Source of the DNA: Agapetus fuscipes
Taxonomy: Eukaryota; Arthropoda; Insecta; Trichoptera; Glossosomatidae
Reading direction: 5' to 3'
DNA: 64,000 nucleotides
NCBI GenBank assembly: GCA_951799405.1
Contig: OX637345.1
Coordinates: 10,230,001-10,294,000 of the forward strand
Shown: positions 2,485-50,200 of the stretch, piece by piece
Numbering within the stretch: position 1 is the stretch's first letter
Layout: each line of letters opens with the position of its first letter
Made by a program: the position numbers and the translations under genes
Notes under the pieces: model-generated
What the model saw: the letters and a program-made list of their open reading frames with translations, nothing else
What the model was told of the DNA's origin: nothing
Database searches by the model: none

Positions 2485-3293
2485 TGAAAGCTCCATTACA
2501 AGGATATAAAAGGATCTTTACAATAATATCATTGTCCTCTTGTACCTTCTGCTTAGTTTTCACACTCTTCTAAGAGCTCGATCGCATTTAAAAATGAAAT
2601 TTTAAATCTAATGTTTACCTACTAACTAAATGCGGGCCTCAATGTTATTACTTTGACGAGTAAAATGTCAAAAACATCCTTTCTACCCCTCGAGATACAA
2701 CTCACCGGCAAATTGGCTCATGAGTCTTCTCTAATGAAAAGAATCGAGGCGAGACCTTACCGTTTATGGTTTTTTTTGACATATTGGAAATTATAGAAGA
2801 TTTTTGTCTATGGGACTAATCGGAATAGCAGCAAAATTGCTAAAATTAAGAAGTATTTTATTAAAGAAAAACGAAAGAAACTCATTGATTTTATTAGTTT
2901 AAAGGTCGTAAAGGCATTACAGCGCCCTCATTTAGCTGTCATCTAAATTCAGTTTGAGCAGTGTATGTCTTTATGGGGATCTATGAAAACTTTATTACGC
3001 TTTGTCAGGCAATCCATAGAAAAACTGCTTGAATGAGTTGTGTGGAAAAAGAGTGTAGCAGTACCTATATGGGGATATATATGTTAGCTCTCTCGTGGTT
3101 TGTCTGGCAATACCATACATTTTGGGACCAAAACCATAGATAAACTAGGCTATGTGAAATCAGGTTACAGCCATTACACACTTGACGCTGTTGCCACTAT
3201 TCTGCCCAGATTTTCTGTAGTTTTTTTTCTATTTCTTTCTCTAGTTTATTTTAACTTCGCACATAATTTCATCCAATGTCGTAATAATTACAG
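2485..3293. other. Intergenic / intron sequence 5' of ZnfA finger exon
   Basis: AT-rich sequence with no recognisable gene or repeat. It presumably is the intron upstream of the ZnfA finger exon; no first exon like those of ZnfB and ZnfC was found here. Confidence 0.5.
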
Positions 3294-4609
3294 CTGGCAG
3301 TTGTGAGGGGGATCCAGTCCAGGTGGATCATGTGTGTCATGCCTGCAGCTACAAGGTCAATCAAAAGAAACTCTTGAGGATCCACCAGTTGTTCACTTGC
3401 TGCAAGCTGGAGCACACATCTGAATGTGTTACCGTCCCGGGGACAAGCAAGAGCCACCATCACAGACACACAACCTCAGGGAGTGGGCCAGCCACCTCAA
3501 CAGATCAACAATTAATGAACACTCAGACCAAGGGGAAAGGTGCCGTCATCAAGTCAAACAAGATCAAAAATATTTGTACTGTAAAAAGTTCTAGATTTCA
3601 TTCATGTAATGAATGTGGATACAAGTGCAAAAACAAAAATAATCTCTTGAAGCACACAATAATACACACAGGAGAAAAACCTTTTGCATGTGATGAGTGT
3701 GATTTCAAATCAACAAGATTTTTTTGTGTGGAAAACCATAAAATAAGACACAGAGCCGATAAACCATTTGTTTGTGATCAGTGTAACTTCAAGACCAAGT
3801 ATATAAACTCATTAAGAAGACATAAAGCAGCGCACACTGGATTGAAGCCTTTTGCATGTGAGCTGTGTGATTATAAAACTTCAAATCAAGCAGTTTTGAA
3901 AATGCACAGACTGATACACATCGATCATAAACCGTTTGCCTGTGACCAGTGTGATTATAAAGCTAAGTGTGCAAGTAACTTAAAATATCATCTTTTGGGT
4001 CATACTGGTAGAAAGCCATTCTCTTGTGATCAGTGTGACTATAAAGCTCTTACATCGTCAGATGTGAAAAGTCACAAAATAAAACACAGTCGACATAAAC
4101 CATTCGCGTGTGAAGAGTGTGATTATAAAGCTGCCAGATATTCAAGTTTGAAAATACACAAATTAACACACAATGTACAAGAAACATTTAATTGTGATCA
4201 ATGTGCTTATAAATCGGTAAGAGATTCAAATTTGAAAAAACATAAATTAAAACACAATGGACAGCAAACATTTGAGTGTGATATGTGTGATTATAAAACC
4301 ACAACATTAACAATTATGAAGAATCATTTATTTAAACATACAGGACAAAAGCTATTTACTTGCGATCAGTGTGACTATGTAGCCAGGACGTCATCAGATA
4401 TAAAGAAACATTATTTCAAGCACACCGGAGAGAAACCATTTGTGTGTTATCAGTGTGATTACAAAGCAGCAAGATATTCAAATATGAAAAGGCATTACTT
4501 AACACACTCTGGAAAGAAAGCATTTGCTTGTGATCAGTGTGATTATAAAGCGTCAATATATGCACACATGAAAAGGCATCATTTAAGGCACACAAGACAG
4601 AAGCCATGA
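3294..4609 (+). CDS. ZnfA: C2H2 zinc-finger protein, finger exon (12 fingers), 5' exon not seen
   Basis: A probable nuclear DNA-binding protein. The exon starts after a TTACAG acceptor at 3291-3293; with a phase-1 intron the frame runs through CEGDPVQVDHVCHACSYKV. It has an N-terminal degenerate C-x2-C finger (HVCHACSYK), a low-complexity spacer (ECVTVPGTSKS, HHHRH, PATSTDQQ), then 12 consecutive C-x2-C-x12-H-x3-H fingers from about 3600 to the stop at 4607-4609, most with TGEKP-like linkers and the FACDQCDYK signature. The degenerate finger and spacer are nearly identical to those of ZnfB, and the spacer recurs in ZnfC, so the genes are paralogues. No first exon with acidic SUMO-like motifs was found to its left, so it lies beyond the window or is lost. 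Targets cannot be read from sequence by eye. Confidence 0.88.
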
Positions 4610-13400: not shown

Positions 13401-16400
13401 GTCGAATGAAAAAAGAATTGGAAAAGCGCGCTTGTAGAGGAAGAAGTGTAATGGGAACGATTGGAAGAATTGCAAGAAATAGGAAACTTACGAAGAATAT
13501 GAGATCGGCGGTCCACAATAGCATATTGGTTCAACATTGATGTATGGAAGTGAGGCGTGAACAGTTAATGAATGTAAGCTGAGTAAAGTATGTACGGTTG
13601 AAATGGCTTACCTGAGAGCAATGGCTGGAAAGACACTGAGTGATAGAGTACGTAATGATGAACGAGTGTGGTATAAAAGATAATATGAGAATGAAAGTAC
13701 AAAAAAGTACAATGTGATGGTTCGGACATCTCAAAAGAATGGATGATGAACGACTAACGAAGAAAGTGTACAAAGGAAATGTCAGAGGAAAGCGCGGAAG
13801 GGGAAGGCCGAGGAAAGAATGGTTAGACCAAATAGGTGAGATTGCGAAAGAATGGAATCTGTAGAGTGAGAATAAGAGAAGAGTATGTATGAAAAAGGTG
13901 ATGAATATTGAGGAAATGAAAGTGGTTTGTTAAGACAGAAAAAAGTGGACCCCTAGTGGAACAGCGGCAGGATACAGTACAGTGGTCAGCTTCATACCAA
14001 CCTATAAGTCAAGGATCTTTCTTGTGTAATTGGCGCTTTTTCCAGAGAAGACCAACCTCGCAGAGGGCTCTTGAGGTGTGTTTTAAACAAAACGGCGCTC
14101 ACCAAATAAATCATCCAAATATTTTAAGAATTTATATGGCTATTTCCATATTGTACGAGTATGCAGGTACACAATGCGGTGGAATAAAATTGATTTATTA
14201 TCGATATATTATATTTTTATTGAAACTGCATAAGCTGGAAGATGATTCTAGCTTAACATACGTCATACAAGGGGGTTAATTTTTGCAAGAAAGTCGAGTG
14301 CAGATTCTGTGCAATTTATTTTTATTTGCTTTTAGTTTTTTCTTTTGTTAAAAGACTGAATTTTTTTTAATTTCTTGTACAAAAATGGCATTTTTACACA
14401 AGAAAACTATGTGCAATAAACACATTGCCATAATGTTAAGCGGTTGGGCTGCGTAGCAGCCAGGGGCGGCGCCCCTAGTTTTATATATAACTCTTATTTT
14501 TTCGTCTGTGTTATGGCCTAGGGGGCCAAGCGGCCGATCTTTCTAGCGTATTTGGAATAGAATAACGTTGGTTCGATTCCCGCTTGGGTCACTTGACTTT
14601 AACTTTGACCCTGGTTCAACAGATGTTATTGGGTAATTATTAATTAATAATTCATTAATACAAACAATAATCAATTATTAATTCATTAATACAAACGATA
14701 ATCAATTATTAATTGAAGATATAATACCTGTTTCTGGTCAGGCAGAATAGGTTGGTGAATTGCATTCCTCTTCACAAATCTATTTTCTTTTTAATTAAAA
14801 AAAATAATAATACTCTTGTACCACAACTCATAAGGCAAGCTCCTTTTTTTTCTCATAAGTCAAAGAATTTAAATCAAATTTGATTTGAAAATTTTGAGCA
14901 AAACTTTTGATGCAGGTTTCTTTATTTTAAAATAAGTCATGGCAATACTCTTGCCAATGTGCGTCTATGGGTTGCCGTATGAATGAAAAAAAAATGATTG
15001 TGATTTTTTCGGTAATGGAAAGGAGAACCAAAATATAATGTTCCACAATAAATAAACCAAGACATTGCTGTAAAATAAAATACATAGAGCACTGCTTACA
15101 CAATCACATTTTTGTATCAAAAAATTACAACAAATAAAAAAGCAAAATATTTTAATTTGTTGCAGGCTCAATCATGCAAAGTAAAAATTTTCAATACGAA
15201 AATTGATACTAATATTCTTAGTAGTAAAAAGGTTGATATAAAATACTAGGCTACAATTCTTAAAATTCAATAAATCTATTATCTTTAATCTAAGTTGCAA
15301 GGATATATTCATTTAAAGCTCTCAGATGTATGCCCACAACCAACACGTGTAGTTCGTGCTTACAAATGCTGAATGCGTACTTACAAATAAAATCCAAACC
15401 TCAAATGAACATAAGCCCCACAACTTTTGCCGACCTTCCCTGAAACAGGGGTGACATTGGCAAAGTGAACCATTTTTTACAGTATGGGTGGTCAGTCTCA
15501 TACCAACCTATAAGTCAAGAACACCCATAATAATCAATTTCTGTCTTTTCCAAAATATTAATAATACTTAATTACTTAAAGAGATCACCTCCACGTAATA
15601 CCAACTAAATATTTTGTTATGAAAATTGAATATAACATTATTAATTTTTAAAACTGAACAAATTTCAAAACTTAATTTAAATCGGATATTTAACGAACCG
15701 TTTAGAGAGAACTTACATCATTCTCGACGTTTCGTCAGCGAAGTAGCCGACGTCTTGAGTACTGGTTTCAGTCAAAGACAATGATATAATTAGTGCCGTG
15801 TGTACAGGTAACATAGTACCATCTAGTGACGTGGAATCCAAACAAAATGAAAGTGGAATGTGTAACAGCCTAAACATAATTACTACCTTCGTTCAAAGGT
15901 AGGCAGTGATTTGTGACAATAGTGTTTTCAAATTCAGTTCATCCTCAGTCGTCGTGCAGAGAGGATGTTCTCCTGAAGACGTCGGCTACGTCGCTGACGA
16001 AACGTCGAGAATGATGTAAGTTCTCTCTAAACGGTTCGTTAAATATCCGATTTAAATTAAGTTTTGAAATTTGTTCAGTTTTAAAAATTAATATAATAAT
16101 TGTAAAAATGTCAAAACGACCGTAATTCTAACTTAAACCTAACTATAACATTATTAAGTCATGTGCAGTCCACTGTACAATGTATTTTCATATAGATTGC
16201 CCTTTTCTTAGCTTTAAAAAATAGGAAAGCTACAGGAGAATCATGATTTTGAATGTTATATTTACAGATGACTTTTGTGAGAGGGATCCAGTCCAAGTGA
16301 ATCATGTGTGCCATGCCTGCAGCTACAAGGTCAATCAAAATAAACTCTTGAGGATCCATCAGTTGTTCAGTTGCTGCGAGCTGGAGCACACATCTGAATG

Positions 16401-18033
16401 TATTACCGTCCCGGGAACAAGCAAGAGCCACCATCACAGACACACAACCTCAGGGAGTGGGCCAGCCACCTCAACAGATGAACAACTAATAAACCCTCAG
16501 GCAAAGGGGCGAAGTGGGGTCATCAATACAAATAAGGACAAAAACAATTCAGTCTGGTCATCTTTGAAAAGCCTTGAATTTGCACAAGCCAATCCTAAAC
16601 CATTTGCCTGTGACCAATGTGATTACAAATCACGAAAAGCATGTGATTTGAAATCTCATAAAATGACTCATACGGGATGTAAACCATTTGCTTGTGATCA
16701 GTGTGATTACAGGTCATCGTATTCTAAGACTTTAAGAAAACATCAATTAACACATACTAGTGATAAACCATTTGATTGTGATAAGTGTGATTTTCAAACA
16801 GCACATGCATCTTCGTTAAAAATACACAAAATGAGACACACGGGATATAAACCATTTGCTTGTGATCAGTGTAATCATAAAACAAGGCAAAAGGGTTCTT
16901 TGAAAGCGCATAAATTAGTTCACAATGGATTCAAACCATTTGCTTGTAATCAGTGTGATTATAAAACAACGCTAAAGGGTTCTTTGAAATTACATAGATT
17001 AATTCACACTGGATTAAAACCATTTGTTTGTGATCAGTGTGATTATAAATCAACACAAAAGAGTAATTTGAAATTACATAAATTAGTTCACACTAGATTC
17101 AAGCCATTTGCTTGTAATCAGTGTGATTACAAATCAAGGCAATTGTCTGCTTTAGGAAGCCATAAAATTAGACACACTGATGAGAAACCATTTTCTTGTG
17201 ATCAGTGTGATCACAAAACTAGATTATTGTCAACTTTGAAAATTCATAAATTATCCCACACTCATGATAAATCATTTGCATGTGACCAGTGTAATTATAA
17301 AACAACACGAGCGTTGGCTTTGAAAAGTCATAAAATGATACATGCAGAACAAAAACCATTTGCTTGCGATCAGTGCAAATTCAAGTCTAGGCATGCATCA
17401 GCTTTGAGAGCCCATAAACTGACACATTCTGAATATAAGCCATTTGCTTGTGATCAGTGTGATTACAAAACTATTATTAAAGGAACCTTAATAAAACATA
17501 AAATGATACACACGGGACATAAACCATTTGCTTGTGATCAGTGCAAATACAAAGCAAGACTTTTGGGGACTTTGAAATCCCATAAATTAACACACACTCA
17601 AGATAAACCATTTGCTTGTGACCAGTGTGATTACAAATCGATACAAAGGTGTGCTTTAAAATCACATAAAATGACTCACACCGGACTTAAACAATTTGCT
17701 TGTGATCAATGCAATTACAAAGCAAGACAGTTGAGGACTTTGAAATGTCATAAATTAACTCACACTCAAGATAAACCATTTGCTTGTGACCAGTGTGATT
17801 ACAAGACTTTTAACAAAGGACTTTTAAAAAACCATAAGATAGTGCACTCTGCAGAAAAAAAATTTGCTTGTGATCAGTGTGATTATAAAGCAAAGCTCTC
17901 AGGGACTTTGAGAACCCATAAATTAACACACACTCAATACAAAGCATTTGCTTGTGACCAGTGTGATTATAAATCTACACAAGCGTCAACTTTAAAAAGG
18001 CATAAAATGTTACACTCCCGAGTTAATCAATAA
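10008..18033 (+). CDS. ZnfB: two-exon C2H2 zinc-finger gene, 17 fingers
   Basis: The coding sequence joins 10008-10443 to 16268-18033 and totals 2202 bases, an exact multiple of three (733 residues plus stop). The intron is phase 1: exon 1 ends CAACAAG before GTGACG, and exon 2 begins after a TTTACAG acceptor, closing the codon as GAT. The product is an acidic N-terminal region with three SUMO-consensus-like sites, a degenerate C-x2-C finger, the shared spacer, and a 17-finger array. It is a probable nuclear DNA-binding regulator; its target is unknown. The 5.8-kb intron is filled with nested repeats. The joining is inferred from phase, splice signals and the same architecture in ZnfC. Confidence 0.82.
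10522..10683. repeat. 30-bp minisatellite just inside the ZnfB intron
   Basis: About five units of 30 bp built on ACAGTAAAATACAATAAAAT followed by AGTGTATTTA. Each unit has complementary ends (AAATAC / GTATTT). The array starts about 80 bp after the exon-1 donor. Confidence 0.9.
10870..11037 (-). repeat. SINE-B head, tRNA-derived
   Basis: Reverse orientation. It contains CGGGATTAGACCCTCAACC (a degraded B box region) and ACCACTGGACTACGGACCGG (A box region), followed by the ATACCATTTA-like linker and the GAAGAGCAAATT body. The 3' tail is missing. Confidence 0.8.
11290..11385 (-). repeat. SINE-E: tRNA-derived head
   Basis: The minus strand reads GCGGGATAGCGCAATTGGC (A box) and later GTATTCGATTCCCGAGAG (B box). 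The spacing fits a tRNA-derived promoter. It is not a functional tRNA gene, because no clean acceptor stem is present. Confidence 0.6.
11574..12160. repeat. Left arm of a large inverted pair
   Basis: This ~590-bp arm is the reverse complement of about 13750-14325. It contains, in order, unique sequence (CAGAATCTGCACTCGACTTT), a minus-strand SINE-B tail (about 11780-11870), the 5' tip of SINE-A (about 11876-11925) and the 3' end of LINE-Y in minus orientation (11945-12160). Confidence 0.85.
12175..12417 (-). repeat. SINE-A copy with GATTA tail
   Basis: Reverse orientation. It begins with TCTAATCTAATCTAATCTAA (the GATTA tail) and ends CCAACCTATAAGTCAAGGAA. A short internal deletion removes the CTTGCCGTCCTT segment. 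Confidence 0.85.
12430..12791. repeat. Repeat block ending in a 28-bp inverted pair
   Basis: CAATAGTTTTTGAGTAAATA near 12685 is inverted at about 12764-12791, giving a potential hairpin. The upstream part (TCGGAACATT, CCCTAGCAA, TGCTAAGGAT) is loosely shared with 38155-38400. Confidence 0.6.
12792..13084. other. AT-rich intron sequence
   Basis: Long A and T runs; no gene or repeat recognised. Confidence 0.5.
13085..13280 (-). repeat. SINE-A copy, degenerate
   Basis: Reverse orientation with GCATGTCCACAAACAGGCAC and GAAACAGGGGTGACATTG. The CTTGACTTA end is lost where LINE-Y starts. Confidence 0.75.
13285..13960 (+). pseudogene. LINE-Y: decayed C-terminal part of a non-LTR pol gene
   Basis: Translating with frame changes gives EFVYLGTSITP, then GTIGRIARNRK, MYGSEAWTVN, RWFGHLKRMDDERLTKKVY and GRGRPRKEWLDQIGEIA. 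These are the segments after the catalytic YADD in this LINE type. Several frameshifts and stops show it is dead. The LINE-Y family recurs at 37640, 38857, 57600 and 8135. Confidence 0.85.
13750..14325. repeat. Right arm of the large inverted pair
   Basis: Mirror image of 11574-12160: LINE-Y 3' end, SINE-A tip (CAACCTATAAGTCAAGGATC), SINE-B tail (GAGGGCTCTTGAGGTGTG), then GAAAGTCGAGTGCAGATTCT. The arms differ by scattered substitutions, so the duplication is not recent. Confidence 0.85.
14520..14775 (+). repeat. SINE-D: tRNA-derived head and AATTATTAAT-rich body
   Basis: AGCGGCCGATCTTTCTAGCG and a B box GGTTCGATTCCCGCTTGGG form the head. The body has CTTTGACCCTGGTTCAACAG and a CTGTTTCTGGTCAGGCAGAA end. 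A minus-strand relative lies at 47840-48055. Confidence 0.7.
14776..15284. other. Unannotated intron sequence
   Basis: AT-rich; no gene or repeat recognised. Confidence 0.4.
15285..15525 (-). repeat. SINE-A copy
   Basis: Nearly full length in reverse: TTAATCTAAGTTGCAAGGAT on the left to CCAACCTATAAGTCAAGAAC on the right, with the complete GAAACAGGGGTGACATTGGC core. Confidence 0.85.
15637..16098. mobile_element. Fold-back element with ~115-bp inverted arms
   Basis: The left arm (about 15637-15756) contains CGAACCGTTTAGAGAGAACT and CGACGTTTCGTCAGCGAAGT. The right arm (about 15978-16098) is its inverse, with CGACGAAACGTCGAGAATGA. The interior is about 220 bp and non-coding. It ends 170 bp before ZnfB exon 2. 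A decayed half copy lies near 34999-35130. Confidence 0.85.
16268..18033 (+). CDS. ZnfB exon 2: 17-finger C2H2 array
   Basis: After the acceptor at 16265-16267 the frame reads DFCERDPVQVNHVCHACSYK (degenerate finger), then the shared spacer (ECITVPGTSKS, HHHRH). From about 16600, 17 successive C-x2-C-x12-H-x3-H fingers run to the stop at 18031-18033, each 28 residues from the next. The FACDQCDYK/S opening is almost invariant while the helix contact positions vary, as expected for an array duplicated finger by finger. Linkers vary (TGCKP, TQDKP, TGLKP). Confidence 0.92.
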
Positions 18034-23689: not shown

Positions 23690-24547
23690 CTGCAAACATT
23701 GCAGCAGGATGTAGGACAAGGTAGCAATTGTCCAAAGGACGACCACTGAAGATGAGGACTGGCAAGATGAGAAATTGGCGCAAGACCAACTGAATGATCC
23801 GGACTTGAAGTATGTGATGGAATGGGTGCGAGAAGGAGAAAGGCCAACCTGGGATAAACTCGCCCCCTTATCACCAACTGTCAAGGCTTATTGGGCTCAA
23901 TGGGGATCCATAGTGACAGAAGGAGGGCTTCTGAAACGAAAGATCGAGAAGGAAGATGGCACACTTAGAAGGAAGTAAACCCTCGTTCCGAGGAGCCGAG
24001 TACCGGAAATCCTTGGACTGCTTCATGGAGGAACTTCTGGAGGACATCTAGGCGTTAAGAAGACGCTGGAGAAAGTGAAAGAGCGATTTTACTGGATCAA
24101 CTGCAGCGAAGACGTCAAAGATTGGTGTCGAAAATGTGTAACCTGTGCAACGGTCAATGGACCGCAAAGGAAAAGGCGAGCACCGATGCGTCAGTACAAT
24201 GTTGGCAGCCCCTTTGAAAGAATTGCCATCGACATAGCTGGCCCATTCCCTACCACTGAGAAGGGTAACAAGTACATCATGGTGGTAATGGATTACTTCA
24301 GCAAGTGGGTGGAAGCAAACGCAATCCCTAACCAAGAGGCCGTAACCGTGACTGAAGTTCTAGTTACCGAATTTATCAGTAGGTTTGGCGTACCCCTGGA
24401 ATTACATTCTGATCAGGGAAGGAACTTTGAAGCTGCTATCTTCCAGCAAATGTGTGAGCGGCTAGGGATCTACAAGACCAGGACCACTGCGCTTCATCCG
24501 CAGTCTGATGGAATGGTGGAAAGGATGAACCGTACCGTGGGGAGGTA
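23690..24547 (+). pseudogene. Gypsy pol: integrase N-terminal zinc and catalytic domains
   Basis: The frame holding 23775-23978 continues after a single TAA (23976-23978). The N-terminal zinc module is visible as LLHGGTSGGHLG (two His) and WCRKCVTC (two Cys). The catalytic triad is Asp in IAIDIAG, Asp in HSDQGRNFE and Glu in MVERMNRT. The last two are separated by exactly 35 residues, so this is a DD35E integrase with all catalytic residues intact. The enzyme inserts retroelement cDNA into chromosomes. The frame ends at a TAG (24546-24548) created by the pogo insertion. Confidence 0.92.
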
Positions 24548-25906
24548 GGGGAAAGGTGGGATACTTGATCCCGCGGGATACTTGATCCCCATTCGATTTT
24601 GGCGCTCCTAGGTATTTTATCACTGTTCTGTTGGTACCATTGGGTAGCGACCATAATGTTACCTTTGTTTTGCCAAATGACCGTTACCTCTGAAGAAGCG
24701 TAAAAAAATAATTAACATTTTTCGATTTTGTAAGGTTCAGACTTTTTTTTACGCGTGCCATGTAAGTTTTATACATTTTTATTCATGTACTTTATGATTA
24801 TTCTACATATATTGTTGAAATGTATGTGCTTTTAGCAACAAAATACCATAACATCAATTTAGAAATGCAAACTCTTCTAACCTAAATTTTTCACTTTTTG
24901 AAAAAATGACAACCGGGGGATCCTTGATCCCTAGAAGTGGGGGGATACTTGATCCTGGGATCAAGTATCCCACTTCAAGTTAATTTTGAAGTCCACGCTT
25001 GAAATAATTAATTTTATTCACGTTTATTCTTTCAAATGCCGTGTAAGTACATAGCAAAAGAGGGAGCCAGAAAAAGAGAATTCCACGGGATCCTCAGCAA
25101 GCTGAAGCGGCTGTGAATGCTGTGAGAAATGGGGGGAGTTTTTAAGTGATCGCTAGGCAGTTTGGCATGAATGTCATGCCTTCCAGATAGCAGCAGTGAC
25201 TCTGATTTCCTTTCACATGATGAAGATTATTGACGACACCGAATCAAAGCCTGAAGACAAAGTTTTAGTCAAGTTAAGTCAGTTTAGCCAAAAAAACAGT
25301 CAAGTGTTTTGTTGGAAAAGTTTTGACTCAAAAGGAAAGTACTTTCAAAGTGAAATTTTTGAGAAGAAAGGATCTAGTGGGCAGTTGTTTCACTTTTCCA
25401 ACAGTAGAAGACATTAGCGTAGTCAGAAGCGCAGACATACAAAAGCTGCCACAGCCGTGCGGCAGACAGCTGGTATTATCAACTTTAAACAAAAATTTCT
25501 TGCAAATGCTTAGTAAATTTTAGTTTTTACTCAATAAAGAAGTTTATTTTGATTTGTATCATAATTTTTTTTTAATTTCCCTTAATAATTGGCTATAATT
25601 ACTAATGCTATCTTTATGGGTGGGATACTTGATCCCGGGGATCAAGTATCCCTCATGGGGGGATCAAGTATCCCTCATGGGGGGATCAAGTATCCCTCAT
25701 GGATAGGGATACTTGATCCTTGGGAGTTTTTTACAAGAACTGATGTAGTACATTGGATCTTCACGACAGTAGTTTTATTTGGATGCCAAGTGGTAGGCGA
25801 TGAACCAAATTATGAACATGGAGCAAAAAAATAACAAAATAACTTCAAGGGTCTGAGATAATGGATGAAAACTAAAACAGGGATCAAGTATCCCACCTTT
25901 CCCCTA
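24546..25906. mobile_element. pogo-like DNA transposon inserted in gypsy integrase, TA target duplication
   Basis: The element proper is 24548-25904, flanked by TA at 24546-24547 and 25905-25906. Its ends, GGGGAAAGGTGGGATACTTG and CAAGTATCCCACCTTTCCCC, are perfect inverted repeats of at least 20 bp. TA duplication and a pogo-type ORF remnant place it in Tc1/mariner-pogo. Removing the element with one TA would leave the integrase frame uninterrupted at this point, so the insertion postdates the retroelement. Confidence 0.9.
25030..25523 (+). pseudogene. Remnant pogo-type transposase
   Basis: Around 25085-25160 the reading IPRDPQQAEAAVNAVRNGGS followed by ARQFGMN resembles a psq-type helix-turn-helix found at the N-terminus of pogo transposases. 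At 25323-25523, VKFLRRKDLVGSCFTFP and DISVVRSADIQKLPQP resemble the C-terminal end of the same family. The DDE catalytic core is missing, so this is an internally deleted, non-autonomous copy. Confidence 0.65.
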
Positions 25907-27074
25907 CTTAGCCAAAGTAGTGTCTAGCCATCAGCGGGACTGGGACCGACATCTTCCTTTGTTTTTATTGGCTTACCGGTCGGCTGTTCAGGAAACGACG
26001 AAGAAAACTCCCAGCAGCATACTGTTTGGGCGAGAAATGCGACTTCTTTGCGATCTCAAATTTGGCTGCAAACCAGGCGAAGACCTAGCCGGGGAAGACT
26101 ATGTGACAGACCTTTGCAGGAGGCTGGATGACATCCATGATCAGGTCCGCATGAACATCGGGGAAGCCAGCGATCAAATGAAGGAGCGCTATGACACCAG
26201 AGCTGACAGCATGGGGTACAAAGCTGGTGACTGGGTGTGGCTTTTTGACCCCAAGAGGCGCCAAGGATACTGTCCTAAACTTCAGCGTTCCTGGGACGGG
26301 CCGTACGAGATCTTGGAGCGCATCAACGATGTGGTCTACCGCATAAAGAAGAGACCAAACAGAAAACCAAGGATCGTGCACTACAATCGCCTCTCACCAT
26401 ACCTAGGCGATAATGATGACCAACCAGCCCAAAAAGTACGACATTGCGTCGCATCTGAAAGATCCCCAGCCTTTGAAACGTTTTGGGAGAACGCGAAGGC
26501 GGGACAGAAGTTTCGCCATGGAGTGACCACAGAAGTCCAGAAGGACTTATTTGAGGTCACTCGGGATCACACTCTGGCATGCAGTGTACCGGAAGATCTG
26601 GATATGTCTAGAGGAATTGCACGGGTCTTCCGATACAAGTTCGGAGAACCGCAACCCTCGAGCAGCCAGCAAGGAAGAGCTCTGAGACTACCGAAGGGGC
26701 GTCAACAAGCATACTGCCTGGTTGTCCCGGATTCCAGCAACCTGGAAGATGACTACAAGGCATTGTGGGACGGCCTTGTTGAGCTGCGTGACTACATGCT
26801 GGAGGATCAGCAGGCGCGGCTGGCAATACCGAAGATGGGTGGTGGCCGCGCTAATCGAGACTGGCGGATCATCCAAAGTATGATTGAGACAGTGTTCTCG
26901 GGAACCAACATCAGTGTCGTGGTGTGCTGCGAGCAAGCGCAGCCGAGAGCCAGTGGGGAGAAATCCGTGGACTGCCACTTCTTCCTGACCACAGGGTGTC
27001 GACGTGGATCAGCATGCCCATACCAACACAGAGTCAAGACTGTTCCGGGACGAAACAGTCTAGGTGGGGGGTAG
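25905..27074 (+). CDS. Gypsy pol C-terminus: integrase end, macro-like domain, CCCH zinc finger
   Basis: From 25920 the frame gives 384 residues. Residues 1-165 are the usual gypsy integrase tail (FLLAYRSAVQETT, TPSSILFGREM, GDWVWLFDP, W.GPYEILERINDVVYRI, VHYNRLSPYL). Residues about 209-338 do not belong to a standard integrase: HTLACSVPEDLDMSRGIARV, YKFG, a LVELRDYM helix and LAIPKMGGG..RDW..IQSMIETVF resemble macro domains of the OARD1/TARG1 type, which bind or hydrolyse ADP-ribose esters. The catalytic Lys and Asp I remember for OARD1 seem replaced (Ala in the GGGRAN loop), so binding without hydrolysis is possible. Residues 352-370 form C-x7-C-x5-C-x3-H, a CCCH finger usually tied to RNA binding. 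The stop is directly followed by the LTR. The macro call is a pattern match by eye. Confidence 0.8.
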   Translation, partial: YLAKVVSSHQRDWDRHLPLFLLAYRSAVQETTKKTPSSILFGREMRLLCDLKFGCKPGEDLAGEDYVTDLCRRLDDIHDQVRMNIGEASDQMKERYDTRADSMGYKAGDWVWLFDPKRRQGYCPKLQRSWDGPYEILERINDVVYRIKKRPNRKPRIVHYNRLSPYLGDNDDQPAQKVRHCVASERSPAFETFWENAKAGQKFRHGVTTEVQKDLFEVTRDHTLACSVPEDLDMSRGIARVFRYKFGEPQPSSSQQGRALRLPKGRQQAYCLVVPDSSNLEDDYKALWDGLVELRDYMLEDQQARLAIPKMGGGRANRDWRIIQSMIETVFSGTNISVVVCCEQAQPRASGEKSVDCHFFLTTGCRRGSACPYQHRVKTVPGRNSLGGG

Positions 27075-27466
27075 TGTTATGTAAATATGAAATATAAATA
27101 TTTAAAATAAGTAGGTATTAGTTATAGGAATTCTGTATTGTATTGTGTGGGTAGGAATCATAGAATAAAATACGTGCAGCATCGAGAAATAATAATTACT
27201 ATGCCTTTCTGGAACTGTCAAGCAAATATAGGTCTAGATTGTACTGTTTTAAAGAGTATAAGAAGGGTGCCAGTGGCTTGCAGAGCGAGCAGTATCATAC
27301 GAGATTTACAAACACATAGAACTAACTTGATCAGTGAACAGAAACCAAGTGGAATAGTCGAGAAAGCTTTGTGAAAATAAATTATTTAAAAGTGTAAAAT
27401 AAACAACTGTATAAGAATACCTGTGTATTTTAATTTGAAAGACTTTTGAACCCTAATTTCGTAACA
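27075..27466 (+). repeat. Gypsy 3' LTR, 392 bp
   Basis: Begins TGTTATG right after a G-rich polypurine tract (GGTGGGGGG) and ends CGTAACA, giving the TGTTA..TAACA inverted tips expected of LTRs. A TATA-like GTATAAGA lies near 27257 and AATAAA signals near 27380-27405. No 5' LTR is in the window for dating. Confidence 0.85.
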
Positions 27467-27486: not shown

Positions 27487-27790
27487 GAGATGGTATTACC
27501 ACACACTACAGAACAGACGGCTACCAAATTAGGGGAGCTTCAATTGGAATGTTTAAGACATCCCCCATACTCTCCGGACCTTGCTCCAACAGATTATCAT
27601 TTTTTTCGAAATTTGGATAACTTCTTGCAAGGGAAAAAATTCAACTCCAATGGGGCAGTCCTAACCTCCTTCAAAGATTGTATTGATTGTCATCTGAATG
27701 GTTATTTTCATAAAGGGATCAATTAACTACCTATGAGATGGCAAAAGGGCATAGATAGCTATGGACATACTTTGATTAAATAAATATATT
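27487..27790 (+). pseudogene. mariner transposase C-terminal fragment
   Basis: HPPYSPDLAPTDYHFFRNLD followed by FLQGKKFNS is the hallmark of the mariner DD34D catalytic region, where the last catalytic Asp is in the APxDYH motif. The N-terminal two thirds are missing and the tail is broken by stops after 27726. No inverted repeat ends were found. Confidence 0.88.
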
Positions 27791-28664: not shown

Positions 28665-29300
28665 GGAGATGTTTACCATCGGGAGCAGTCAAGACCCTGG
28701 TTAATGCCTTTGTGATGTCACGAGTTGACTATTGCTCAACGCTGTACCTACATAGAGGTCAGCCGAAAAAGCAGTTCAATTGTCTTCGGTCTGTGCTGAA
28801 TTCAGCGGCAAGACTCATATTCGGGATGTCCAAATTTACTCGCATTACTCCATTGTTAGGGAAACTGCATTGGCTTCGTTTTCCGGAGAGGGTGGTCAAC
28901 CGCGTTTGTCTGATGATATAGTACGTGTATAAGGCTGTAAATGGTACAGCCCCTTCATATTTGGCTGACATGTTTACACCCGTTGAGAGGGATTTGAGGC
29001 GCCAAACGCTCAGATCTGCAGGGGATGGCGTGGTGGACTTGGTCCAGCCACACCGTCAGACACGCACTAATTTTGGGGACCATGCTTTCCGGTTTGCGGG
29101 ACCAATGGAGTGGAACAGACTGCCACCTAATGTGAGGAAGGCAAAGACTGTTGGTGTCTTTAAAGGAGCACTAAAGACACATCTTTACAAGAAATCTTAT
29201 CCGTGATTTGAGAGGGCCCTTGAGGTGTGACACACACAAAAACGGCGCTCTTCAATTATGTGTACATTAAAATAAATTATCCTTATATATATATATATAG
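28665..29300 (+). mobile_element. CR1-like LINE 3' end with microsatellite tail
   Basis: Open frames give [56 protein letters not shown] and FRFAGPMEWNRLPPNVRKA, the conserved region after the RT of CR1/L2-type elements. One in-frame TAG (28919-28921) interrupts it. The 3' UTR, GGCCCTTGAGGTGTGACACA with AACGGCGCTC, is shared with SINE-B. A TA repeat ends it. Severely 5' truncated. Confidence 0.9.
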
Positions 29301-35177: not shown

Positions 35178-37549
35178 TTACTTTGCTTTAACCCTTTTTG
35201 GTGCTGAGTGAGTTAGTCTGTGCCTGCGTAAATGTGATGCATGGGTGGTTTTATAATCACACTGAAGGCACTCAAAAGGTTTGACTCCAGTGTGAGTTAA
35301 TTTATGACGCTTAACAGCCGACAGATTGCGGGCTTTGTATTCACACTGATCACAAGCAAACGGTTTATCACCAGAATGAATATACTTGTGAGATTTTAAA
35401 TTGTGAGAAAAGACAGTTTGAAAGGGGCATTCATCACAAGTATACACTCGTGAAACATGCGTCAACCTATGTGATTTGAAAACGGCGGCTTGATCCGTTT
35501 TGAAATCACACTTATCGCATGAATATACTGTGTCTCCGCAGTGTGTTAGCTTGTGACTTCTCAAATTTGATGAATGGGTAGTCCTATAGTCGCACTGATC
35601 ACAAGCAATCGGTTTAATCCCACTATGTATTAATTTATGATATTTCAGGTATGATGAGTTTGAGGCAGCATATCCGCACACATCACAAGCATAAGGTTTG
35701 CCACCATAATGAGTTAATTGATGTCGCTTTAAATGATTCTTAGTTTTGGTAGTGAAATCACAAGCATCACATGCAAATGGTTTATATGCAGAATGAATCA
35801 ATTTGTGTCTATTTAGATGGGATTTGTGAGTTGTTTTAAAATCACACTCATCACATTTAAATGGCTTATCACCAGTGTGCCTAAGTTTATGAATTTTCAA
35901 CTTGCTGTAATAGTTAGTTTTGTAATCGCACTGATCACACGCCAATAGCTTTATACCAGAGTGGACCGCCACATGATTTGTAAAGCATCTATGACTGGAA
36001 GTGCTGTATCCACACAGTTCACAAAGATACAATTTCACTTCTGACGGGAACATAGCAGTGTGTTTACGAATGTGAGCTCTTAAGAACGGGCGTTTATTAG
36101 TTTTATAATCACACAAATCACAAGATAAATATTTGACTGGGTTGTGTTTTGCCATGTGGCAAGCAAGATAAGCCAAGATAGTAGTTTTATAATCACAATT
36201 ATCGCAATACAGAACAGATGGCAAAATTTTTGAGTGATTTGACATGTGATCTTTCAGTTGGGACATGTACATGCTTTTAAAGTCACACTGATCACAGCAA
36301 AACTCTATTATACTGTGTGTTACCATGTGCCTGGCTAGGTGAGACATATTCTTTGTTTTATAGGCACAATTATCACAGCTAAGAAGTTTAGGTGGAAGTT
36401 TTTTCTGACGAACTTTAGTGTGAGTTAATTCATGTCGTTTGAGATGGAACGAACGAGCTGTTTTATAATTGCATAAATTGCAGGAGAACGGTTTTTCACC
36501 CGAGTGCTTTCTGTGGTGAATTGTCATTGTTGAAGAATGTTTACTTGTAAAACTACATTCACTGCACGAGTAACGGCCTGCCTTTTTATTTTTATAGTGC
36601 TTTCTATGGGCTGATGTTTTTAGATGACTTAACATTTCTTTTAGATTTTCATTATCTGAATGTGTATATTGATCAGAATCACCATCAGAAACATTTCTTT
36701 TATAAGTAGTTAAGTGCTGAGAAAGTTTGTGGGTAGCTTTATTATCAGAAAAATTTGTCAGATTTTCTGTTTCATAATTACAATCATCAACTTTACAAAT
36801 AAACTCATTTTCTTCAGGTTTTGTATGTGTCATTGTGTGTCGTTTTAAATGCGATGTGCGTGCACTTTTGTAATCGCATAGATGGCAGGTAAACGGCTTT
36901 TCCCCAGTATGCTTTCTACCGTGTACAGTCATGCTTGATGCATCTTTACTAGTATAATCACATTCACTGCACAAATACAAGCCTGATTTTTTATTTTTAA
37001 GTTGTCGTTTTCTTTTCAAGTCTTTTGTTTCAAAATTCTCATCATTTGTGTGTGATGATTGATGCGTTTTTAAATCTTCAAAGAAATCAACAAATTTACT
37101 AATGGAGAGAGTAGATGGAGGAGAAGCTGATGCATCAGAAACGTTATTTGTGTCACTGTCTGGTTGAGTTTTTAAGTCTTTTATCATCTCATCTATTTCA
37201 GGATCACTTTGGTCCGAGGAATCTGTGTCCTCATCAGTGTGATTCAACAGATGTTTTTCTAAATCTCCTATAACTGTTGTCGTATAAACGCACTCATTAC
37301 AAGAATACAGTACGGTATATTTTGATGCAAATGATCTCTTTACTTTTCTCATTGTAACATTTTTTTCTTTCTTATTCTCTTCTTGTTGATTGGTTGATGT
37401 ATTTTTATATTCTTTTGTTTTCATAATTCCGTGTTCACTTCTGTTGTAAGTGTTGATTAGTTGTTGATCTGTTGAGGTGGCTGGCCAACTGTCTGAGGTT
37501 GTGTGTCTGTGATGGCGGCTCTTGCTTGTCCCCGGGACGGTAACACATT
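35178..37549 (-). CDS. ZnfC exon 2: spacer and 19 C2H2 fingers
   Basis: After ECVTVPGTSKSRHHRHTTSD comes a charged linker with one finger (YSCNECVYTT..H..H) and acidic stretches (DTDSSDQSDPEID), then two finger pairs that resemble each other (YLCSECDYTSK.., YSCSECSFTSK..), a degenerate FICKVDDCNYET unit, and a near-continuous array to the stop at 35178-35180. Linkers early in the array are long and irregular; later ones are TGDKP/SGIKP type. The paired early fingers suggest an internal duplication of about 150 residues. Confidence 0.92.
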
Positions 37550-39612
37550 CTGTAAAAACAGAATGCAATACATCATTGGTCTTTCATTAAAATTAAGGGG
37601 AAAAAAGAAAAACAGGAAAAACTCTGAAGGATCTCTATCCTAGGATCTCTTAGGAATGAATGGGTAAAGAAAGAATGTAATTTGAAACAGGATGTGATAG
37701 TTAAAGTACAAAAGATTGTGAGGGCATGTGGAAAGAATGAATGATGATAGACTGACAAAGTATATGTACAGAGGAAGTGTGAAAGGAAAAACGAGATAAG
37801 GGATGACCGAGAAAAGTATGGAGTGATCAGATTGAGGAGATTGTGAAAGAATGGAATATATAAAGTGAATGTAAAACAAGAAAATGCATGAAAAAGGTGA
37901 TGGATATGAATGAATTGAAAGAGGTATGTAAGGATAGGAAGAAATGGAGGCGGCTCTGCAGAGTCTCTGGCCACCCCTAGCGGAATGGCGACAGAGTTAC
38001 AGTTACAGTAAGAGGAGTAACAGGCTGTAGATGAGGTACATTAAACATAGGGTCTGTCGACACACAAGACTACCAAGACTTGCAAAAGCCTACTATAAAT
38101 CTGACATTATCAATCATTTGAATTTCCACTCCCTTCGCCTCGTTGACAATTACAATGAGATCGGAACATTGTTAAATTTCTAACCTTTTTCGTCATTTTC
38201 CCTAGCAACCTGGCCGGGTGCCGACACAACTTTTGCCTTTAACAATTCACGTGCGGACCTCATTTGACGATAATAAACTCACCACATGAATTGCCACGGA
38301 CAATATTACTAGAGCCGGGTTACTAGAGAAGAGGTAAGCTAATATTGGTTATTGTTTGCTAAGGATCTCAGATGTATACAAATGACATTTGCCTGCCAAG
38401 AAAAAAGTTCCAAAATCAAATCTGTGCTGTATTTTTGAAATTGAAAGATTTTTTTCGACCAAGCTCGCAGAGGATTCTTCGAGATTTCTAATCTAAATCT
38501 AAGCTGCAAGGATATGTATCATTTGAGATTCATGATATTAAATGCATTCCCACAAGCAGACAAGCATAATTTCGCGCTCAAACCGCATGTAGACCTACAA
38601 TATAAAAAACCCAATTCTCAAATGGACATAACCCTGCAACTCTTGCCGACCTTCCCTGAAACAGGGGTGACATTGGCAAAGTGAACCTTTTTTTACAGTA
38701 TGGGTGGTCAGCCTCATACCAATCTATAAGTCAAGGAATACAAGCAATTAATTACATTTGAGTACAAAAAACAAGTACTTAAATACTAAGCAATTAAACA
38801 GTAAAAAATTAAAAAACTACTACTTAAACATATTCTATAAAAAAAAGTGATTTTTTTTAAAGCCTCAGCCTTAAGCGCCAGCATTACAGATAACCGCCAT
38901 TTCTTTCGGTCCTTGCATACAACTTTCATTTCATTCAGAGTCATAACCTTTTTCATACAAGCTCTCCTTTTATTATGACTCTGGATATCCCAGTCATTCG
39001 CTATTTCGGAAATTTGGTCCATCCATACCGTTCTCGGTCTTCCTCTACCACGACATCCATTTAATCTTGCAGCATATACTTTCTTCGTCAGTCTTTTCTC
39101 ATTCATTCTCTCCATATGACCAAACCATCTAAGCATACTTCTTTTAATCTTTACTTTCACACTTTCTCTTACACCACATTTCTCTCTTACAAAATCATCC
39201 CTCACCCTATCACTCCGCCTTTTTCCAATCATACTTCTTAGGTAGTCCATTTCCACTGTATGGACTTTACTAATCTCACTTTCACTCACCGTCCACGCTT
39301 CACTTCCAATTTGATTTGAATTGAGATTTGATTCTCACTAAAACAGCGCTCACCAAATAAATCATCTAAATATTAATTCACGTAGAATATAAATACATAT
39401 GTTGTCAGCTTACCTTGCGCGGTATTATGGTTCCTCACAAATCTGCTCCTCCGCGACATTTTGTTGACTGAAGTCTCATTATTGAAGTCTGTTGTTCCAA
39501 GTTCAACAGAATGTTCCTTCTTGATGCTGTGCAGGATTTCTGTTTTTGCGTCACACTCTGTAAAGTGGACGCACTCGTCTTTTATCAATTCTAACTTTAC
39601 GTTATGAGACAT
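35178..39612 (-). CDS. ZnfC: two-exon C2H2 zinc-finger gene, 19 fingers
   Basis: On the minus strand exon 1 (39612-39414) ends CAAG before GTAAGC and exon 2 starts at 37549 after a TTTTTACAG acceptor. Phase 1 closes as GAA, giving the join into ECVTVPGTSKS. The product is about 857 residues: a short N-terminus with VKLE and IKKE SUMO-like sites, the shared spacer, an acidic Ser/Thr-rich segment and 19 canonical fingers plus one degenerate finger. It is a likely nuclear DNA-binding protein. The intron (37550-39413) holds two LINE-Y fragments and a SINE-A. Unlike ZnfA and ZnfB, the degenerate HVCHACSYK finger is absent because the acceptor lies inside the spacer. Confidence 0.85.
37640..37990 (+). 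pseudogene. LINE-Y 3' fragment in the ZnfC intron
   Basis: The plus strand carries GAATGATGATAGACTGACAA, AAAGAATGGAATATATAAAG and GCATGAAAAAGGTGATGGAT, matching 13740-13930, with GGCCACCCCTAGCGGAATGG at the end. The frame is broken many times. Confidence 0.8.
38155..38400. repeat. Diverged repeat shared with 12430-12680
   Basis: GAGATCGGAACATTGTTAAA, TTCCCTAGCAACCTGG and TTTGCTAAGGAT occur in the same order as at 12450-12660. Function unknown. Confidence 0.5.
38490..38745 (-). repeat. SINE-A copy
   Basis: Reverse orientation, TCTAATCTAAATCTAAGCTG to CCAATCTATAAGTCAAGGAA, with complete core. It lies in the ZnfC intron. Confidence 0.88.
38857..39310 (-). pseudogene. LINE-Y 3' fragment, better preserved
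   Basis: The minus strand is open for 167 codons: [60 protein letters not shown] and KVMTLNEMKVVCKDRKKWR. This is the C-terminal domain after RT, with the RWFGH and GRGRPR motifs. It is the cleanest LINE-Y piece in the window. 5' truncated. Confidence 0.88.
39338..39375 (+). repeat. SINE-B 3' tail scrap
   Basis: AACAGCGCTCACCAAATAAA then TCATC, identical in order to the SINE-B end near 33535. Only the tail is present. Confidence 0.7.
39414..39612 (-). CDS. ZnfC exon 1
   Basis: Start ATG at 39612-39610 (MSHNVKLELIKDECVHF). An upstream in-frame ATG at 39684 exists but precedes a low-complexity stretch. The 66 codons end in phase 1 at the CAAG/GTAAGC donor. VKLE and IKKE fit the sumoylation consensus, paralleling ZnfB exon 1. 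Confidence 0.75.
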
Positions 39613-47200: not shown

Positions 47201-50200
47201 CGCCTCCACGGGGGTGTCGTCAGGGCGCACGTCTGCGTTCCACAGGTGGTAGCCTGGACAATAAACATTCATTAACGAGAGTTGATTTATTTTTTGTTAT
47301 TATTTTTTTTCAGAGTTTTTTGCACTTATTCTTATCCTGACATACTTCGCTCAGTTCATTAATATTCCTGATTGTTTTCCCACATTTCCTTCTTTTACAT
47401 TTAATCTGTAAATCTCTAAACTTCTTCTTATTCTTGTTATAGATCTGTGATCTGTTTATTGTGGAACTCCCTCCTGTGATACAGAAGCCCAGCTGTTTTT
47501 CCATCTTTTGGGAGGGCGACCTGCTAGACGCTGGTCGTCCGGTATCTCCTGTGCTAGGACTCGGGCTATCCTTCCTTTGTTCATGCGGTCTATATGGTCC
47601 CTCCAGAACCGTCTCCTCTTCCTGCTGCATCTGACGATGCTTCAGTATCGCACATGCTTCTGATTTCTGAGTTCCTCAATCGGTCTCTCAGTGTTTGTGC
47701 AGCAATGGTGCGGAGTGTTTTCATCTCAGAATCTCTAAACAATTTTACTAATTTTACCAAGGCATTCTTTTCTCGGTCTTCCTCTTTTAAAAAAAACAGA
47801 TCTATGAAGAGTAATGCAATTCACCAACATATTTAGCCCAGCCAGAAATAGGTATTATTAACATTATCAATTAATAAATCCTAATTTAATATTTTAAGCA
47901 AATTATTGATTAATAACTAGCCAATGACATTTGTTGAACTACGGTCAAAGTTATTGTCGATAGGACATGACGCAAGCAGGGTTTGAACCGGCGTTGTGTC
48001 AATAACTCATATTCAAGTGCCAACGCCCTATCCCCTTGACCATCCCAGCGACATTCCCCTCTTGTTTCTTACATTTCCCCAATAAATATTCTTAGTCAAG
48101 CGCTCTTTCTAGTCCATTCATTCCAAATTGTAGTTAGGATACAAAAACACATTTATGTTTGTAAGTGCAATTTGAATTGCATAATATTTGTTAAATCAGA
48201 TAAGTTGCACAACCCTTCTCTGCACTGAGAGCCGTAAGTGCCCTCCAGCCGGCCTTCCTCCAGCCCGGCACTTTGCTGAGCTGCTGCAGCAGCTGGTGCA
48301 GCCTCTCCGGGGGCGCGTGCATCTCCCAGCCCAGCTCCCCTGCCCAGCCCACGCGCAGGAAGCGGCAGGAAGACAGCGCGCGGTGACTGCTCACCGGGAA
48401 CTCCTCGTTGCTCAGCTGCACGTCCAGGGCCTCCTCAAGGATGTCGCGGCTGGAAGAAAACATTGGAGCTAAAGCATAATGCAGTGTAATTTATTATTTT
48501 TATATACGAGTTATATAGTTAAAGTCTGTACACAAAATTTACTTATTTCATCCCACTTTTATTTTTGAGATCCCACATTTTTTCATATCAAGATTAGAGG
48601 TTATGAAATCATGCCCAAAGAGGGCGTTCACCACAACATATCATCATCATCAATGGCATGGTGGCGCGGTGTGGGTTTTGGCTTCCTTGACCAACCAAAG
48701 CCATTGCTGCCTATCCAACACCTTCTTCCTCAAGTTCTATACTCCTACCACACAGCAGTCTGCCACCACTTTGTCCAGCCTGCACACTATCCTGCGCTCC
48801 TTTAGGTCCTCCATCACAACCATCCCCATGAGGAGGTGACATCAGTGAGAGTGACCTTGAGCCCCAGCTGGTTGATAATCTTCTGCATGTTTGTGGGAGG
48901 TGACATCAGTGAGGATGACCTTGAGCCCCAGCTGGTTGATGATCTTCTGCATGTTTGTTACCTGTTGGGTCCCTGCAGAGCCAGGATGCCCATGTGGGAG
49001 GTGACATCAGTGAGAGTGACCTTGAGCCCCAGCTGGTTGATGATCTTCTGCATATGGCTGAGCACGTGCTGAGCAGAGAAGCCGCTCGTCACTATGTAGA
49101 AGCCCCGGCCCTGCGAGCAAATGATCATAAAAACTACTGCACAGTCAAAGAACTGTCTCTTTGATTTTCTTTTCTTTTTAAATACTCAGTATTTCTTCTA
49201 AAAATTCTAACCTCCCAACACCAATCCTACTAACACTTCCCTTAGGTCTCACTAGAACTTAGATTGTTTTTTTACTATATGAATGGTGTATAAATAAAAA
49301 ATAATGTACCTAATCGATAGTGAGGCGTAAGGGAAGTGTTTGCAGGATTGATGAATAGCTGCTTAATCTATAAATAAATTGAACAGGGAAATTATGAAAT
49401 TAGTCAATGGGAAAATTACCAGAAACTTTCAAATATAAATAAAATTAATTAACCTAATACAATTTGTTCAATTTGTTCAGATATCCATAGAAAATTCAAG
49501 AGCTCAAATACTGCTGCAGGGACAGGTCTCGGATCCCTTTGAGATCAGTTCAGGCCTAAAGCAGGGTGACGCCCTTTCTCCATTGCTCTTCAACCTAGCC
49601 TTAGAAAAGGTTGTGAGAGAAACCAAACCTGTGTATGGTGGAATCACCATAGGAAGTACCATTAGGCTGCTGGGATATGCGGATGATGTGGTGCTTCTGG
49701 GAGAGAACGCTGCACAGCTCCGGGCGCTCTTCTTACCAATGGAGAGAATGGCAAGGAGGATAGGATTGAGAATTAATGAGGGGAAAACTGAATACTTGCC
49801 TGTGGCGCGGCGGGATATTCAAGAAGATTTGAATGTAGATAATTACAAGTTTAAGAACTGCAATTCATTCAAATACTTGGGTACCCTTATAAATGACAAA
49901 AATATCCTATCCTCAGAATTACATGCCCGAATTCACTCCGGCAATAATGCTTTTTTTGGCCTTAGAGGGCTATTGTGCTCAAAATGGCTATCCCGCTCCA
50001 CAAAATTCAAGATTTACACTTCCATTGTTCGGCCAGTTGTGTTGTATGGATGCGAAGCCTGGAGTCTGACTCAAAAACAAGAAAAATCTCTCCAGGTCTT
50101 TGAGAACAAAATGCTTCGTCGCATTCTCGGACCTGTATTTGAAGATGACAGGTGGCGTATCCGGACCAACGCGGAGCTGATGTCCGTGTTTCAAGATGCT

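Follow-up and report, generated by a model that had tools for sequence, protein, structure and literature searches.

A TARG1/OARD1-type macrodomain and a CCCH finger at the end of Pol in a Ty3/gypsy lineage

RNA viruses are known to use macrodomains, such as that of alphavirus nsP3, in counter-defence, and carry them in polyproteins. In human cells, TARG1/OARD1 (C6orf130), a member of the ALC1-like class, is a free-standing enzyme without a CCCH zinc finger. Chromoviruses are Ty3/gypsy elements that carry a chromodomain behind the integrase. Macrodomain-bearing retroelements are already on record, as fish endogenous retroviruses have been described with macro domain proteins (Basta et al. 2009, as cited in PMC4977317). 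Here we describe a Ty3/gypsy element of the caddisfly Agapetus fuscipes whose pol frame ends in a TARG1/OARD1-type macrodomain followed by a CCCH finger. It lies in a window, by which we mean the whole analysed stretch of 64,000 nucleotides (assembly GCA_951799405.1, contig OX637345.1, positions 10,230,001 to 10,294,000 of the forward strand). Domain identity, fold, in-frame fusion, common descent with the integrase, presence in many copies and purifying selection were established by computation. We give about even chances to the reading that a Ty3/gypsy lineage, so far named from beetles, took up an ADP-ribose-handling domain of the TARG1/OARD1 type, joined with a CCCH finger, at the end of Pol, and that this domain acts as an eraser where its catalytic pair is kept and as a reader in the lineage of the window.

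The fish elements likewise are retroelements with an acquired macrodomain. By the description in the review they are vertebrate retroviruses with an additional reading frame (PMC4977317), whereas the element described here is Ty3/gypsy and has the domain in frame behind the integrase, with a CCCH finger. None of the papers listed in the literature surveyed, which was covered in part and with subscription papers mostly outside, appeared to describe a macrodomain in Ty3/gypsy elements.

The frame from 25920 to 27074 on the forward strand is open over 384 residues and contains the end of a Ty3/gypsy integrase, a linker, the macrodomain and the CCCH finger before it stops. Behind the integrase C-terminus the same frame continues via DMSRGIARVFRYKFG and LAIPKMGGG...W into C-x7-C-x5-C-x3-H, and the integrase core further upstream is in the identical reading frame. 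The earlier sequence-only reading had proposed that an OARD1-like macrodomain with substituted catalytic residues, and a CCCH finger, are fused to pol, and each of these proposals is confirmed in the window copy, the finger by its residue spacing and with a Pfam score below the cut-off. The same reading put forward ADP-ribosylation-based silencing or modified chromatin as what the domain may be directed at, which would be one putative role. Chromoviruses also have an extra C-terminal domain behind the integrase, but the 384-residue frame has no Pfam chromodomain match; the element does not group with the chromoviruses on this feature, and a chromodomain in place of the macrodomain is ruled out.

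Human TARG1/OARD1 is the best solved match of the domain by every approach used. It is the top match of the window segment in the PDB (phmmer, E 7e-13), and a profile of 15 tails finds it at E 1.7e-43, followed by DarG macrodomains at 1.7e-09 and 7e-09. A fold model built on 15 rows (mean predicted local distance difference test score, pLDDT, 78.7) has TARG1 4j5s as its first match among solved structures (Foldseek, E 1.4e-12, template modelling score 0.85 by target length), so the fold comparison that the earlier reading had called for recovered a macro fold. This model replaced a first one from 2 sequences, which was set aside as too poor (mean pLDDT 43.4). Viral macrodomains such as that of alphavirus nsP3 have the same fold but match less well (best E 4.1e-07 versus 1.4e-12). 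In a viral fold library, the window domain comes closest to VP8 of Kadipiro virus (E 4.1e-12, 26% identity). The Pfam Macro family (PF01661) does not match the window macrodomain; it matches 11 of the 15 rows of the tail alignment A2 at E up to 1, with 3.4e-06 as the best value. The window domain is a TARG1-class macrodomain but, judged by its catalytic residues, is predicted not to be a TARG1-like enzyme.

The CCCH finger of the window copy has the spacing C-x7-C-x5-C-x3-H and scores 17.6 bits against zf-CCCH, for which the Pfam cut-off is 20.5. The same model matches 12 of the 15 rows of A2 at E up to 1, and the strict motif is present in 39 of 54 tails. When the last 60 residues were shuffled, the spacing arose by chance in 5 of 20000 trials. 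In the linker ahead of the macrodomain, F21 of the predicted helix is conserved to at least 90% over the 15 rows.

The catalytic pair of TARG1 consists of Lys84 and Asp125 (PMC9411070), the second of which is printed as Glu125 in PMC7050489. Human TARG1 thus differs from the window copy, where both residues are absent; the window copy and its relative P0001, whose rows in A2 are 95% alike, have Pro and Ala at these positions. Both sites are spanned by 49 of the 54 tails, the other 5 having been dropped, and the pair is kept in 43 of these 49 and in 11 of the 15 rows of A2. P0007 and P0036 have Arg for Lys, P0036 also has Asn for Asp, and Asp is absent in P0030 and P0049. Two further families of the window's own genome, B (L031-L036) and C' (L040, L043), have likewise lost the pair. 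The equivalents of Asp20, Gly43, Pro118 and Gly123 of TARG1 are kept in the window copy; we take these residues, as well as Ser35 and Thr92, to be part of the ADP-ribose pocket.

The macrodomain with both catalytic residues substituted is still under purifying selection as a protein, because the ratio of nonsynonymous to synonymous substitution rates (dN/dS) is 0.16 and 0.17 in two comparisons. The first is between the macrodomains of the window family and of C', which are 73% identical and both without the pair (dN 0.164, dS 0.998; bootstrap 0.08-0.29; 135 codons), and the second is between the tails of the window copy and its sister L042 (bootstrap 0.06-0.35; 219 codons). For more distant pairs dS is near saturation, and the values are Nei-Gojobori (NG86) estimates only. 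Ratios among near-identical copies, which range from 0.16 to 1.24 on few changes, were not used. Retention of the pair in most tails (11 of the 15 A2 rows, 43 of the 49 that span both sites) makes the family, taken together, look like one of putative erasers and the branch of the window like a derived reader. The earlier suggestion that the domain may bind only therefore fits the window copy with its Pro and Ala; for the whole family it was not borne out, since most tails keep the pair.

The 89 proteins that were retrieved with the whole frame make up, with P0001, a set of 90 relatives. By local comparison the tail is present, in a few cases partly, in 53 of them; the remaining 37 are without it, and 32 of these stop within 20 residues of the integrase match. 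Where a species name is given, tail-bearing relatives come from two longhorn beetles, Aromia moschata, with many copies, and Molorchus minor, and relatives without a tail come from a spider, Araneus ventricosus. According to Pfam, P0003 and P0037 each hold protease, reverse transcriptase, RNase H and integrase, the Ty3/gypsy order, in a single protein ahead of the tail, and P0002 holds the part from reverse transcriptase to integrase; the window copy holds the last part only. A piece of the window's family that contains reverse transcriptase (L048) was recognised by eye only. Among the relatives listed, neither database names nor precomputed Pfam annotations mention a macrodomain, and scans of collections of viral contigs and genome contigs returned no relative.

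The tail shares its descent with the integrase. The integrase tree holds 44 C-termini, left from 89 after thinning of rows more than 90% alike, and all 21 tail rows fall into a supported set (96/89) whose other two of 23 members, P0054 and P0055, are without a tail. That the tail rows form a single clade is not rejected (approximately unbiased test, p-AU 0.369), and macrodomain and integrase distances correlate over 15 rows (Mantel r 0.64, p 0.0002). In the macrodomain tree, 14 element domains form one group with respect to human, phage and plasmid relatives (97/94); the support of the tail clade falls to 73/90 once sequences from the window's own genome join this tree. Matches to the element macrodomain occur in 93 phage and 54 plasmid records and range from close ones (41.5% identity) down to DarG-like ones (L001-L007). 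Phage and plasmid macrodomains of the TARG1-like kind (LpeD, phage G, a Fusobacterium phage and others) also reside in mobile genomes, with as much as 41.5% identity to the domain of P0006, but in the fetched records they are annotated as separate genes, and the tree sets the 14 element domains apart from them.

The element family is present in many copies in the 618 Mb of the window's genome. A search at the DNA level gave 40 scored matches, of 986 candidates, at 95-100% identity with the window included; the 39 other copies are 95-97% identical. With human OARD1 as the query, 995 candidates were returned, of which 150 were scored, host exons and other families among them. Of these 150, 63 lie in open frames of at least 1200 residues and 37 in frames of exactly 1422, and a stop inside the match was met in 9, one of them among the 63 with long frames. 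Thirteen family copies were read, that of the window included, and 8 share the stop before TGTTATG; TGTTATGTAAATAT stands directly after the stop in 7 of the 12 other copies (L011, L013, L014, L041, L042, L044 and L045). A host OARD1-like exon, 44-45% identical to the human protein and with the Lys/Asp pair kept, was seen at three places, which may be gene copies or assembly duplicates (L016-L018; C31:352918, C52:32994 and C31:266638). A host gene in place of an element is ruled out, as the tails sit in pol proteins and the host exons lie elsewhere.

The same genome contains a second Ty3/gypsy-like family with a macrodomain, which accounts for 9 of the 150 scored OARD1 matches (L019-L030, 8 places, for example G000:C21:11274486 and C12:10913250). 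Its order is RNase H end, TARG1-like macrodomain with the Lys/Asp pair, integrase H2C2 domain and integrase core. We presume the first of these to be RNase H from the motif NADALSRI; it had no Pfam score in the piece given. The macrodomain matches TARG1 at E 7.9e-23, and its dN/dS among three subfamilies is 0.08-0.13 (NG86); no CCCH finger was seen by eye in this family. L047, the sole copy examined for env, has reverse transcriptase upstream and a Baculo_F-type env downstream (PF12259, E 1.7e-37). Errantiviruses carry an env of this type. A grouping of the tail macrodomains with those of the second family is not rejected (p-AU 0.551). The two positions in Pol stand for two insertions or one move, between which the macrodomain tree cannot tell. 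Somewhat doubtful, though a real possibility, is a broader claim: that a TARG1-type eraser of ADP-ribose entered the Pol of arthropod long terminal repeat (LTR) retroelements independently in at least two lineages, one with env, and at two positions, because ADP-ribosylation in these hosts generally hinders or guides the replication of retroelements, with repeated loss of catalysis under selection marking a switch from eraser to reader.

How might such a tail work? Because it is part of Pol, it would travel within Pol or be clipped from it and so reach the reverse-transcription and integration complex, where the CCCH finger may bind nucleic acid. The macrodomain would recognise ADP-ribose set by host transferases on element proteins, nucleic-acid ends or the chromatin of the target site. 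Lineages with the Lys/Asp pair would use it to erase the mark. The window's lineage, whose protein remains under selection after loss of the pair, would use it for binding alone, in the manner of a reader or tether. Among the known substrates of TARG1 are esters of Asp and Glu as well as phosphate esters at the ends of nucleic acids (PMC7050489), which fit such a role, and a preprint on an alphavirus in mosquitoes reports ADP-ribose binding by the macrodomain, not hydrolysis, to be critical (PMC12632316). The second family, with its TARG1-like domain elsewhere in Pol, also counts for this reading. Several observations weigh against it. The 43 tails with the pair are mostly near-copies from Aromia moschata, and the residue numbers are our own count along human OARD1. 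On the integrase tree the lysine was replaced at least three times, three being the fewest changes, and all three tail families read in the window's genome (B, C and C') are without the pair. In the window copy Ser35 and Thr92 are changed to Pro and Asp. Five of the 13 family copies read are without the usual stop and TGTTATG, 3 of them being broken within the tail, and the CCCH part of the fold model is of low to middling quality (block mean pLDDT 51-71). P0054 and P0055 lie inside the tail clade and end right after the integrase, which implies that these two lost the tail, that an element can do without it or that it was acquired repeatedly. The earlier reading had held that sister elements without the extension would speak for a chance read-through; such sisters exist in these two proteins, but the tail is common, at least in part, to 53 of the 90 relatives, and the proposal of a genuine fusion was not refuted.

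The main rival, which we consider rather unlikely, is that the tail was a targeting module from the start, reading ADP-ribose on chromatin or at repair sites and steering integration, with hydrolysis incidental. The tail has the position in Pol that the chromodomain has in chromoviruses, the protein is selected even after the catalytic pair is lost, and the lysine was lost at least three times. The class moreover includes readers such as ALC1 (PMC7050489). A pure reader leaves the retention of the pair in 11 of the 15 A2 rows unexplained, however, and in the second family the domain stands ahead of the integrase and not behind it. Alternatively, the domain may act on nucleic acid, with the host marking foreign nucleic acid, the macrodomain stripping element RNA or cDNA of ADP-ribose on 5' or 3' phosphates or on bases, and the CCCH finger, a kind that often binds RNA, holding the RNA. 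Similar macrodomains recur in phages, TARG1 frees nucleic-acid termini of ADP-ribose and has a suggested role in the recognition of transposon-derived RNA (PMC7050489), and thymidine ADP-ribosylation is undone by TARG1, DarG and SCO6735 (PMC9411070). Nothing in the analysis points to nucleic-acid ADP-ribosylation in this host, though, the finger of the window scores under its Pfam cut-off and the window lineage is without the catalytic pair, and we regard this explanation as improbable.

Still less credible is the idea that the role in ADP-ribose handling was lost and the domain has become a structural or dimerising part of the integrase. The replacement of the lysine in the window and two other lineages would agree with it, and the lysine-replaced lineages have the longest element branches of the macrodomain tree (1.05-1.09 versus at most 0.62), but several pocket residues are kept in the window copy and the pair is kept in 11 of the 15 A2 rows. 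A chance read-through or a functionless passenger deserves next to no credence. The window copy is itself broken and two members of the clade are without a tail; against this stand the two dN/dS values, whose bootstrap upper limits are 0.29 and 0.35, the exact length of 1422 residues shared by the open frames of 37 among the 150 scored genome matches, and the tail in 53 of 90 relatives. The sharing of the tail, the many genome copies and dN/dS together rule out a chance read-through.

The features of the element in the window are collected in Table 1. Of the element, a damaged 3' remnant is left in the window, its integrase split by an insertion and with an in-frame stop upstream of this at 23976-23978. 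With TA counted in, 24545-24572 are perfectly complementary to 25880-25907 over 28 bases; from one translated stretch we take the insertion to be pogo-like. GPY/F is the name we assume for the integrase C-terminal domain. One LTR only was inferred, and no further copy turned up when the window was searched with the sequence of this 3' LTR. The last codons before the LTR (27041-27074) read PGRNSLGGG in the window, LFRDGTA in family B and FRDE in several relatives; perhaps this is one conserved DNA stretch read in different frames.

Table 1. Positions of the parts of the Ty3/gypsy element and its insertion in the window
Feature	Position	Strand	Basis
Integrase H2C2 zinc-binding domain, end part (start further upstream)	24075..24158	+	Pfam PF17921 E 3.9e-06, residues 1-28 of 24075-24545
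Integrase catalytic core (rve)	24210..24488	+	Pfam PF00665 E 2e-15, residues 46-138 of 24075-24545
DNA transposon-like insertion within integrase, 1357 bases	24548..25904		25-base perfect inverted repeats, TA both sides
Integrase C-terminal (GPY/F-like) domain	26298..26399	+	Pfam PF22938 Integrase_p58_C E 4.4e-13, residues 127-160 of frame from 25920
Linker helix FETFWEN ahead of macrodomain; FExFM in relatives	26472..26498	+	predicted helix, model residues 18-26
TARG1/OARD1-type macrodomain, Lys84 to Pro and Asp125 to Ala	26529..26924	+	PDB phmmer, profile, Foldseek, residue mapping
CCCH zinc finger C-x7-C-x5-C-x3-H	26973..27029	+	sequence; zf-CCCH below cut-off
Stop codon of pol frame, after G-rich stretch, before LTR	27072..27074	+	sequence; P0001 ends alike
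Inferred 3' LTR TGTTATG...CGTAACA, 392 bases	27075..27466	+	sequence; first base adjoins pol stop

Elsewhere in the window, a frame just behind the LTR (27490-27726) resembles the end of a mariner transposase. Two long frames at 3245-4606 and 16225-18030 are self-similar at 84-base steps, as in C2H2 zinc-finger arrays. The pieces at 28712-29206, 49439-50461 and 54755-56035 we take to resemble LINE-type reverse transcriptase. On the reverse strand, 35181-37583 is an open frame of 801 residues.

To our knowledge, the antiviral systems of beetles work without interferon. The presence of a TARG1-type domain in these elements suggests that ADP-ribose marks matter in the contest between element and host. 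Natural contrasts, with the catalytic pair kept or lost and the domain behind or ahead of the integrase, would allow the parts played by binding and by hydrolysis to be told apart. If the proposed reading is true, ADP-ribosylation would count among the candidate mechanisms by which retrotransposons of invertebrates are controlled or targeted.
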